From: Rhizodiscina lignyota
Taxonomy: Eukaryota; Ascomycota; Dothideomycetes; Aulographales; Rhizodiscinaceae
DNA length: 64,000 nt
Assembly (NCBI GenBank): GCA_010015805.1
Contig: ML978128.1
Span: forward strand, 124,001-188,000
Direction of reading: 5' to 3'
Shown in pieces: positions 24,942 to 30,200 of this stretch. The translations under genes were made by a program, and so were the position numbers. The first letter of the stretch is position 1, and every line of letters starts with the position of its first letter. The notes beneath the pieces were generated by a model. It saw only the letters and a list, made by a program, of their open reading frames with translations, had not been told where the DNA came from and searched no databases.

Positions 24942-25439
24942 TCACCACATGGCATTATTGTAGCCGGCCAGGACTGGCTGCGGAGTAAACCACCAGCCAT
25001 CCGGAGTCCTGAACCTCCGAGGGATCTGATCCTTCGTTTTCGCCCCCGTCTCCCACTTCACGTCACTCCACATACCCTCATGCCCGTCTTTCCACTTCCT
25101 CGTCCTAAAGTCGTACTTCTGCGCTGCTCCCCTTCTTGCATGCCAGAACGGCTTGCCAATTCCTCTGTCACGTGGACCGTCTCCAATCACGGCGTTGAAA
25201 GCCCATGGGTCGTTCTCTGGGCGGTCGAGGAAGTCCCAGCGCGACCACTGCGAACGTGTCGGTGCATCCCATCCGAGACCTCGACCACGGTGCGTCGCGA
25301 CGAAGATGTCTGGGCCGCTGTTGGTTAGAATGTCGGCGAGGCGGCCAAGGCGGGTGCCGCGTTTGCCGTCTTTTGGCCAGATGAGGGCGTGTCGTTTTGG
25401 CGTTTTGCGCCGGACGGTCCATGGTGCTTGATATGCCAT
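24942..25439 (-). CDS. Trp-rich 165-residue protein, unknown function
   Basis: A single exon runs from the ATG at 25439. The protein is very rich in tryptophan and basic residues (more than a dozen Trp in 165). Motifs include RRKTPKRHALIWPKDGKRGT, SRWDFLDRPENDPWAFN, RDRGIGKPFWHARRGA and TPDGWWFTPQPVLAGYNNAMW. There is no signal peptide or membrane span. The codon use and sustained amphipathic pattern look real rather than spurious. I do not recognise the family. The composition would suit a small structural or nucleic-acid-associated protein, which is a guess. It converges with MED27. Confidence 0.6.
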   Translation of the reverse strand: MAYQAPWTVRRKTPKRHALIWPKDGKRGTRLGRLADILTNSGPDIFVATHRGRGLGWDAPTRSQWSRWDFLDRPENDPWAFNAVIGDGPRDRGIGKPFWHARRGAAQKYDFRTRKWKDGHEGMWSDVKWETGAKTKDQIPRRFRTPDGWWFTPQPVLAGYNNAMW

Positions 25440-26362
25440 TGTTGGTTGGGGACTTGGTTTTTTTGGGGGGTTCTGTTTTTTTAGCAAAATATATGTGCTT
25501 TTGGATTGGAAAAAAAGGTAGATGAATTCGGGGTTCAGAAATTAGAAAGAGACAAGAGCAGATATCCACCCAAGACAAACAGGTTCTGATGTCCAAACCT
25601 TCTCAACGGATCTTCTCTGCTGTGATCAATCTACCTTATGACTCTTACTATATACCTCAACTGCATGGCAGTTGCCTTGCTGTCGTTGTACGGTCCTGTA
25701 TGTGTGATGAAAGTTTGATCAAACAAACCGCAGCAACTGGAGGAATATCAAACCCAAACCCAACGAGCGGCAGCAAGATTCACTCCAGACTCACGCAGGT
25801 ATTTGCGGATCGGGAAAACAGCGAAATGGCGCAAGAAAAGCTGCTCAGGTAGCAATAGAGGGAACTCTTTTGGGCATCTGTGGGAAGTGAATATTATCGT
25901 CTGAGAGTTCTGCTGAGAGGTTTGACGCTGTGGGTCAGGAACAAGCGGGGAGAGTGTTTGCAACAATGTTCGTTGAGCAATTTGGAAGATACTGCAGAAC
26001 TGATTGCCTGTGTAATAAACGCGTTTCTTGGGCGATAATGGAAGGAACGCCGTTGGGATACCAGAGCAAATTCAAAGTGGAAATCAATTCTTGTCAAATA
26101 TTGCCACTGAAAGGACATACTTAGATGCTGTTAGAAGTTGAAATTCGTGAGCATCTCGGAGCATGTGACGGAAATTTTGGCAATGCCATGATAATGAAAG
26201 CCTGAAACTTTTGAATGGTTGCACGAGGATATCGCAAGAGAGGTGAGATCGGCGATTGCTACCTGTTCTCCATTCAAAGTTCCGTCGACTCTATTTTGAT
26301 ATATACATAAGGGACTATTCAAACAGCCGTTCGTCCGCTCCTCGAATCAAAAATATCTTGGT
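25440..26362. other. Intergenic, nothing recognised
   Basis: There are 920 bp with A/T-rich tracts (a poly-T run near 25458-25520) and no supported gene. Confidence 0.45.
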
Positions 26363-26844
26363 TTACAGCTTGCTGATGAAGAGTCTTGCGGCCCGTGTAC
26401 GCACCGTCTTGGGCAGGACATATTTCGAGAAAAGGTAGATGAGAGTCGGAAGGCAGATGAAGGCAACTGTAACCTCGTTCATGAAGTAGAACGGGACGAG
26501 TTGGGGCATGGCAGCCTTCAGGATGACCTGTAGTTCTCCCAATTAGCTTTCCAGCATACTCGGAGCTGGCTCCATAGGTGCACGGGAGGTCATACCGATG
26601 TATTGAGCTCGCTCTCTTGGCTCTGACCGGTGGTCTGCTGTCTTCCCTCCTTGCGGATCTGTCCGAGTTTCTGGACTTGCGCGTTGATGGATGGAGTGAA
26701 CGGGGCGACATTGCGCTTGGTGGTGAAAGTGGCAATCGCAGCCGGCCTGACAGCAGGCGAGGAGCGCACAATCGATTGTGCGAGAAGGGGCTGGCGCTGT
26801 TGCAGCGACCGAGCAAGCGGTCGGAGGAGTCGGGCGGAAGACAT
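26363..26844 (-). CDS. ATP8: Nuclear-encoded ATP synthase subunit 8 with presequence
   Basis: Exons 26596-26844 and 26363-26527 flank a 67-bp intron (GTATGA to TACAG, phase 0) and give 137 residues. The C-terminal 48 residues, from Met90, begin MPQLVPFYFMNEVTVAF and end in RTRAARLFISKL. Yeast Atp8 is 48 residues, begins MPQLVPFYFMNQLTYGF and ends RLYVSRLFISKL, so the whole subunit is present. It has one membrane span (about 99-118) and a basic C-terminal tail. It acts in the Fo stator stalk of mitochondrial complex V. The leader (1 to about 50) has MSSARLLRPLARSLQQRQPL and no acidic residue, as in a mitochondrial presequence. Residues 51-89 form a polar spacer. The intron lies six codons before the ATP8 part begins. 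In most filamentous fungi this gene is in mtDNA. It diverges from NIC96 with about 375 bp between starts. Confidence 0.92.
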
Positions 26845-27220
26845 GCTGGGTGCTGTTGTGAGAGCGATTGTGTCAGCGGGGAGCTTTGCCGGTTATGCTG
26901 TGATCGTAGGAAGGAGAATACATACAGCTGGGAGCTTCACAAGCGTGTCGGAGATGGCAAACGGACCAATTGAGATGGATTCTTGTGGTGGTGAAGCTGT
27001 TCGGGCTGCAGCACTGAGGTTCTGCGGAAGTGCCAAGGCTACGCGCGCGGCTATATCCTAACCCTGTCACTATTTTTAAGCGCGACAAACACGAAATCGC
27101 GTCGAGCTCTTGTTTGCGCGCAACAGCTTCCCTTCCAGCCTGCCTTTACCACCACAACCACACACCCAAAGGCAGCGCTGGCCAACCTGAGGTTGCTGCT
27201 TGATTCCACCGCAGCCCAGC
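26845..27220. other. Divergent promoter ATP8/NIC96
   Basis: This is a 376-bp shared upstream region. No other gene is seen. Confidence 0.5.
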
Positions 27221-30200
27221 ATGTCGTCATTGTTCGGGAACTTGGGCGGAAACGGCCAGAAGCCGAACTTGTTTTCAGGTCTTGGGGGGCAGTCAACGTC
27301 CGGTGCAACGACGAGTGGGCAAACAGGTCCCTCTCTCTTCGGCACCTCTACTGGAGCGAGCAATGCGACAAGCTCGGGTCCGAGCACTTTCTCGGGTTTC
27401 AACACCGGTGCGACTTCTACGAGCTTTGGTCCAAGCCTCCTCCCGCCCTCTCAGCCCGCTTCCACTGGCGGAGGACTCTTTGGAGGCTTGAACACGAAGG
27501 CTACTACTTCAACTGGCGGACCGAGTCTCTTTACAACGTCTCAGCCTACGACGACTAGTGCCCCGAGTGGTGGCTTGTTCATTGGTGGCTTAGGTGGCCT
27601 GGGCACCACCACTGCTGCGACTTCATCAAGCACGCAACCCACCCAAACCGGATCGCTGCTTGGTGGATCAGTGTTTGGGGCTCCACAAAAGCCTCAACAG
27701 GGTCAGCAGCAGGGACACCCTCAGCAGTCAGGCCATTCTTCGCAGCAGCAACCATCGCAACTCGTTCAGGAGGCCATTAATGACCCAAACGCGTCCAAAC
27801 CTGTCCAGTCAGCCTACTTCGATCATTTGCTGGAGCGTGGAAAGAAGAGGAACAATGAGAAGAATGGGACATCGCAGCTCGGTGAGCTGCCAAGCCTGCA
27901 ATTGGGCCTAGGAGATATTGCCCGGAAAGTTCGTAACTTGGGGACTGGTGGGCCTTCTGCTGCGCAAGCGCGTGGCACTGGCGACACAAAAGCGTACATT
28001 ATCCTAACCTTATGCTGTGTTTGAGACGGAAGTGGGCTGACAAGATCATGTAGTCATTACCTCCTTGCTGCTTCGGGTGTCAACACGGCGACGACGTTAC
28101 GTGACCTCAACAGTTTCACGGCGCAAGCTGGTGCAAGTGTTGCCCCGGCTTCTCGTCCCGAAGCCGTGGACACCGACCTGGATAACTATGTCGCGAGCTT
28201 GAGAAATCAGTCCACCCTCGATCTGATCGCCGAAGGACTAGAGCAGTCGAAGAGGGATTTCGATGCATTCTTGGAAGAGAGCGTGCAACTTGAGTGGGAC
28301 CAGCAAAGGAGAAGAATCTACGAACATTTTGGCCTAGCTAGAAAAGACGACAATCTTGGCGGAAGTGTCGACGGCGGAGCTACCGGCGATGATCGAGGTG
28401 CGTTTGGGAGATCGTCGAGGAGAGGCCGTGGCTTGGGCAAGTCATCACTTGCTACAAGCATGGCATTGGGCGCATCTGGTATGACCCGATCAGTCATTGG
28501 TGCTCCCCAAGCAGGCAATGGACGAGCTAGCATGTTTGGCGAGTCGCCAGAGAAGACGACCCCGACTAGTACTCAGGGGGGTGTAGCAGATCGCTTCCAA
28601 AGGGATCGCCAAGAGAAATTGGCCGAGGAAGTCAAGAACCTCAATGCTGCCCGTATAAGAAAGACAACATTTCCCGTCTTGCACCGATTTGCGGAAATTG
28701 AGAAAGAGGCTGGCGTTGACAATGTACAACCACTTGTCGACTCGTACAAGGCGGTTATTGCCATCACTGGAGAGAAGTCGAACGTCGCTCGCTTATCTGA
28801 GCCTGGAGTTCTTCATGAGAGGAGCTACAGGCTGGAATATCGCGAAGAGGGCGAGCGACCCAATTCTGACGAAGCCATCCGCCTACGCAAACGCATAATC
28901 AACGGCTCTCGCACCTTCCTCGAAAACCAATTCTTGGACCAACTCACCACTCTTGTCACTAAGAACCCTCGCGAAGCCCAGCTGGGTGGTGTACCCTCTG
29001 TTGTTGACAAGATCCGTGGCTTTGTGCGCATCCTTGAAGCTCGTAAGGAACTAGGCTGCGAAGTTACGAAACTTCAGCACCTAGGCAATGACTATGTGTT
29101 CGTCATACTATACTTCCTTCTCCGCTGCGGGCTCCTCGAGGATGCGAAGAAGTACATTGAGGAGCATAGGGTCGCTTTGGGTCGCATCGACAGGAACTTC
29201 AAGTCTTTCGTTGAGTGCTATTCGAAGGATCCGGACCGTCGTTTGCCACCTGAGTTGCAGCAACGGATCACGACAGAGTATCTCAGCCAGACAAAGGTTG
29301 TTGCCGACGACAATAGAGACCCATATAGGGTCGCATGCTACAAGATTCTGGGCCGCTGCGAGCTCTCCCGCCGCTCGCTTGATAACATTGGAGGTGGTTG
29401 GGAAGACTGGCTGTGGTTGCAATTCAGTCTTGCAAGGGAGCAGCCCCGTGCAGAGGCCAGTGCTGGTGAGACGTTCGGTCTCGAGCAACTCAGAGAGGTG
29501 GTTAGAGATATTGGCACAAGACATTTCCAAGTCGGCCAGAGCAGTGATATCGGTGGCTACGGGACTTACTTCTTCCTTCAAGTCTTGGTGGGCTTATGGG
29601 AGGGTGCGGTCAATTGGCTTTATCAGCACGATCTCATTGCTGCTGTGCACTTTGCCATCTCAATGGCGTACTATGGTCTTCTGAGGATTGCAGATTTCTC
29701 GGCGCCGCAGGAGCTGTGTAAGACTTTCTTTCTATCGTGCCATATAATAATGAACTGACAGCTCTACCAGTAACATATTCGACCCGCCAACTGCCGCAAC
29801 TCCATTTTGGCCTGATGATCGGCTACTATACCGCCTCCTTCCGTACAGCACGACCCCTGCATGCAGTCGACTACCTCACTCTAATTGCTCTCAATGCCGA
29901 CTTGGAAGGTGAAGCAGGCAAGCAGCAAGCCCAGCTGTGCTACGAAGCCCTCCGCGAACTCGTCCTCGAGACGCGCGAGTTTGCCGCGCTGCTTGGCGAC
30001 GTCTCAAGTGACGGGAAACCCGTCAAGGGCGCGATTGAGACCCACAAAGAGTTGCTGAAGTTGGATGATGAAGACGAGTTCTTGAGGACGATCACGTTAT
30101 ATGCCGCCGGCATGGCGCAAGAGGCCGGCCGAGTTACGGACGCAGTGCTACTGTTCCATCTTGCGGAACAGTATGACTCTGTTATTCAAGTCTGCAACAG

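Follow-up and report, generated by a model that had tools for sequence, protein, structure and literature searches.

A single-copy nuclear ATP8 gene with an intron and a basic N-terminal extension in Rhizodiscina lignyota

The minus strand of the window, by which we mean the whole 64,000-nucleotide stretch of DNA that was analysed, carries a gene for Atp8, a small part of the ATP synthase whose gene most fungi keep in the mtDNA. The Rhizodiscina lignyota ATP8 reading frame joins positions 26844-26596 to 26527-26363 and encodes 137 residues. A gene for a nuclear pore protein lies beside it on the opposite strand. The features, in window coordinates, are as follows.

26596..26844, minus strand: exon 1 of ATP8, 249 bases, residues 1-83, an open frame from the ATG at 26844 that encodes the basic N-terminal extension
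26528..26595, minus strand: predicted ATP8 intron, 68 bases, phase 0, with a GTATGA donor and a CTACAG acceptor (GT-AG)
26542..26547, minus strand: branch-point-like GCTAAT, starting 20 bases before the end of the intron
26363..26527, minus strand: exon 2 of ATP8, 165 bases including the stop (54 codons plus TAA), with six leader codons (VILKAA) followed by the Atp8 core
26366..26509, minus strand: 48-residue Atp8 core (ATP synthase subunit 8), matched by PF05933 and by yeast Atp8
26845..27220, no strand assigned: intergenic region separating ATP8 from the divergent NIC96/NUP93 gene, defined by position only
27221..29758, plus strand: NIC96/NUP93 gene for a nuclear pore protein, with a predicted start and with the Nic96/Nup93 domain in the frame 28166-29755 (PF04097, 309 bits)

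An earlier note on this DNA had described a spliced gene of 137 residues whose final 48 are Atp8, with an intron six codons ahead of the Atp8 part. The joined frame agrees on both counts, exon 2 opening with VILKAA before a core in which 28 of the 48 residues are identical to yeast Atp8. The leader and the intron are predicted from gene anatomy. The GCTAAT motif is presumably compatible with a fungal branch point, and retention of the intron brings the frame to a stop at the second intron codon. An ATG is kept at the start of the core, as would be expected if exon 1 were a separate short gene and Atp8 were made leaderless from its own ATG at 26509. Exon 1 however shares its frame with exon 2, to which a canonical intron links it, and if taken alone it would end at that second intron codon. 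To our knowledge a leaderless 48-residue Atp8 has no known import signal, which also counts against this arrangement, and we assign it a negligible probability. In the preferred gene model the transcript would instead be spliced into a single frame of 137 residues.

The identity of the core is clear. Residues 90-137 matched the fungal Atp8 family PF05933 in a Pfam scan over profile positions 1-48 of 48 (74.4 bits, E 7.8e-21; the curated cut-off is 26.1 bits), and the core aligned end to end with yeast Atp8 in the PDB (E 1.8e-11). Chance is therefore excluded for the core. The alignment also shows that the core shares with yeast its 48-residue length, its MPQLVPFYF start and its LFISKL end. A PF05933 profile search of the 33.4-Mb assembly returned a single match, at C8:150366-150509, which is this core. 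Pattern searches for relatives of the Atp8 exon gave 59 matches in viral_contigs and 314 in genome_contigs, none of which was confirmed; this is expected, as these are viral and prokaryote collections. Two whole-protein Pfam matches, to DUF4512 (17.7 bits against a cut-off of 27) and to a CUB family (12.7 bits against a cut-off of 30), were judged to be chance.

In Saccharomyces cerevisiae Atp8 is encoded in the mtDNA by a gene with neither leader nor intron. The two proteins are alike in length and along their whole alignment (PDB 6b2z and others), and differ in the membrane segment. On the Kyte-Doolittle scale the R. lignyota protein shows a single hydrophobic stretch, spanning about residues 102-120, in keeping with one membrane segment. 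With yeast as the sole comparator, its best 19-residue mean is 1.72 in the core as against 2.41 in yeast Atp8, and the core GRAVY is 0.76 as against 1.24. The alignment also places a proline within the R. lignyota membrane segment where yeast has isoleucine. The yeast segment is thus the more hydrophobic of the two and has no mid-segment proline.

The third codon positions of ATP8 are 70% GC (exon 1 67%, exon 2 73%); mtDNA GC contents of 25 to 29% are given for Shiraia-like species and Coniothyrium (in part from PMC11881002). This GC3 value, a predicted intron and a nucleoporin gene as neighbour together place ATP8 in nuclear DNA. The earlier note had also read the frame as standard nuclear code, but the ATP8 protein has no tryptophan and so offers no Trp codon that would tell the codes apart. 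The NIC96/NUP93 gene, predicted to start with the ATG at 27221, stands head to head with ATP8, and the stretch between them probably houses the promoters of both. Downstream of ATP8, at 24945-25442 on the minus strand, lies a 166-residue open frame that starts MAYQAPWTVRRKTPKR and had no Pfam match at E 0.1.

The 89 residues ahead of the core had been described as an arginine-rich leader free of acidic residues. This holds for residues 1-65, with 11 lysines and arginines and no aspartate or glutamate, but not for the leader as a whole: residues 66-89, which cross into exon 2, contain two basic residues and three glutamates (Glu66, Glu77 and Glu79). Such a composition is probably that of a presequence followed by a spacer. 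The helical amphipathic moment of the leader, 0.53, was equalled or exceeded in 464 of 2000 shuffles of residues 1-45, and amphipathicity therefore adds nothing beyond composition. The earlier note had proposed a search for a donor of the leader among other nuclear genes. None was found: the 89 residues gave two matches in the R. lignyota genome at E up to 10, namely the leader itself and one weak match (E 0.18, 32% identity) that is not significant and was rejected as a donor. A Pfam scan of the leader on its own gave no match at E 1.

Searches of the 29 contigs of the assembly with cox1 and atp6 profiles returned no match and hence no sign of mtDNA. The 5.8S rDNA was likewise not found in these contigs, a weak result in that one search scored 39 of 1246 candidates and the other had no known positive. 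Since neither was detected, the assembly may leave out contigs of the organelle and of the rDNA, and the mtDNA may still carry an atp8. The assembly does contain a second small ATP synthase gene that is commonly nuclear in filamentous fungi.

L005 1486-2019 (G000:C9 near 223472-223657), minus strand: nuclear atp9 (ATP synthase subunit 9), read by eye, with a presequence-like start and an intron inside it

By eye, the leader of this atp9 is dissimilar to that of ATP8. The two genes are alike, as is nuclear Atp9 of Podospora (PMC3420929), in that a small Fo subunit is encoded in the nucleus with a targeting sequence, in ATP8 a probable one. They differ in the protein itself and in the leader, that of ATP8 having no significant relative in the genome.

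The missing mtDNA leaves room for a mitochondrial copy, and with it for two other accounts of the locus. In the first, the nuclear sequence is a nonfunctional insertion of mtDNA (a numt) and Atp8 is still made by the mitochondrial gene. The frame is however intact and conserved end to end with yeast, its GC3 is 70%, its intron has the expected signals and its leader is basic and in frame. In addition, atp8 is reported as undetected in Pleosporales mtDNA (PMC11167856), a precedent that concerns that order. All of this argues against a numt, which we regard as extremely unlikely. In the second account the fungus has and uses two copies of atp8, one mitochondrial and one nuclear. A few fungal and plant cases that retain nuclear and mitochondrial duplicates are described in PMC10809612, and a mitochondrial atp8 would be compatible with an assembly that shows no mtDNA. 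Against this, the literature available to us yielded no such case for atp8, and the mtDNAs reported for Pleosporales are without the gene. We consider such a dual state very unlikely.

The preferred reading, functional transfer to the nucleus, has a close published counterpart. Franco and colleagues reported in 2017 that the mtDNA of Stemphylium lycopersici has neither atp8 nor atp9, and that the nuclear atp8 (TW65_04673) and atp9 of this species have longer N-termini with targeting peptides predicted by TargetP (PMC5626475). By that published description the likeness to R. lignyota is that atp8 is nuclear and longer at its N-terminus than its mitochondrial homologue, the extension being a predicted targeting peptide in S. 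lycopersici and a probable presequence here, and that atp9 is nuclear too. The difference is that the S. lycopersici mtDNA was shown to lack atp8, whereas the assembly used here gave no sign of mtDNA. The loss was suggested to be later than the divergence of Dothideomycetidae from Pleosporomycetidae (PMC5626475).

Further reports point the same way. In Shiraia-like fungi atp8 and atp9 are stated to have moved to the nucleus, a statement that comes without a nuclear sequence (PMC11881002), and both genes are described as undetected in the reported Pleosporales mtDNAs (PMC11167856). Absence of atp8 in single species or sets of species is given in PMC4366305, PMC6221350, PMC5722872, PMC7225605 and PMC5913888, with the gene missing from 9 of 20 mitogenomes in PMC7225605. 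A review, with Moolhuijzen 2018 as its source, adds Pyrenophora tritici-repentis to the fungi in which atp8 and atp9 are nuclear (PMC7272585); the available text of that study says only that the P. tritici-repentis mtDNA lacks the two genes (PMC5913888). The available text of PMC12112736 yielded nothing on nuclear copies. The statement in the earlier note that some Pleosporales mtDNAs are reported to lack atp8 is borne out (PMC5626475, PMC11167856, PMC4366305, PMC6221350, PMC5722872, PMC5913888). Among the Dothideomycetes of PMC4366305, atp8 is named for M. graminicola only and atp9 alone for N. parvum, which is not among the five Pleosporales of that study. The absence of atp8 may therefore reach beyond Pleosporales, or the N. 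parvum annotation may be incomplete.

What functional transfer would be expected to leave behind is a nuclear ATP8 in one intact copy, with an intron and with an N-terminus lengthened by a basic stretch. The locus has this form, and the same arrangement is published for S. lycopersici; the proposal of the earlier note that ATP8 had moved to the nucleus is supported in this sense. The lower hydrophobicity of the core, measured against yeast, and the nuclear atp9 also speak for it. The locus is very probably a functional nuclear copy that would be expressed from its own promoter, the gene having left the mtDNA in an ancestor and acquired this promoter, a spliceosomal intron and the 89-residue N-terminal extension. 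The ancestor in question would most likely be that of Pleosporales, and the mitochondrial copy would since have been lost. Nuclear ATP8 in R. lignyota is a genuine and informative, though not a novel, case, the phenomenon having been in print since 2017 (PMC5626475). As relocation of atp8 to the nucleus is already published for Pleosporales, the interest of the finding is modest.

Transfer of ATP8 had also been called rare because of the hydrophobicity of its product. This calls for a milder wording. A review places atp8 with the genes for which fewer than six moves to the nucleus are counted (PMC10809612), but the same source describes natural and experimental precedents, with successful experimental expression of ATP8 from the yeast nucleus, and describes human Atp8 as hydrophilic. 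Yeast ATP8 is reported to function from the nucleus after recoding and addition of a targeting sequence (PMC3420929). This allotopic expression resembles the R. lignyota gene in that Atp8 is provided from the nucleus with an added targeting sequence, a probable one in R. lignyota, and differs in being an engineered construct rather than a natural relocation.

For the protein itself we envisage a precursor that would enter through TIM23 and then be processed at a putative cleavage site. Once fully imported, Atp8 would be inserted from the matrix side by an Oxa1-type route, as the conservative sorting of nuclear Atp9 is described (PMC11452304). Given an N-terminal presequence, full import followed by Oxa1 insertion from the matrix would be the simplest way to the topology of Atp8. 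The less hydrophobic, proline-bearing core appears to agree with this route, on the strength of one comparison, that with yeast. The locus puts on view the layout of a relocated gene, with a leader, an intron near the junction and a softened membrane segment. It is useful for the question of why some genes stay in mitochondria, and for work that expresses ATP8 from the nucleus.

A more far-reaching version would have the host be a Dothideomycete outside Pleosporales in which atp8 became nuclear earlier than published, or for a second time. Here the less hydrophobic, proline-broken segment, together with an acidic spacer (residues 66-89) that would help the N-terminus out of the matrix via Oxa1, would have made the move possible. 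Taken as a whole, this version seems to us unlikely.

Two comparisons with markers of particular Pleosporaceae were negative. One Alternaria marker primer was absent from the genome with up to 2 mismatches allowed. The 17beta-HSD of Cochliobolus lunatus, used as a query, gave 119 matches, with a best E-value of 6e-69 at 50% identity and a highest identity of 66% among the matches listed. By eye, the query letters match a 147-residue stretch of 3is3_A, the C. lunatus enzyme. The locus with 66% identity scores 235 bits against the trihydroxynaphthalene reductase 1ybv/1doh and 204 bits against 3is3, and was therefore rejected as a close orthologue of the 17beta-HSD. The absent primer and the lack of a close 17beta-HSD orthologue speak weakly against particular Pleosporaceae. 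The reductase locus itself, at G000:C9:574985-575452 (L011), is a melanin-type trihydroxynaphthalene reductase gene, the match to PDB 1ybv/1doh at 235 bits covering a 150-residue stretch.
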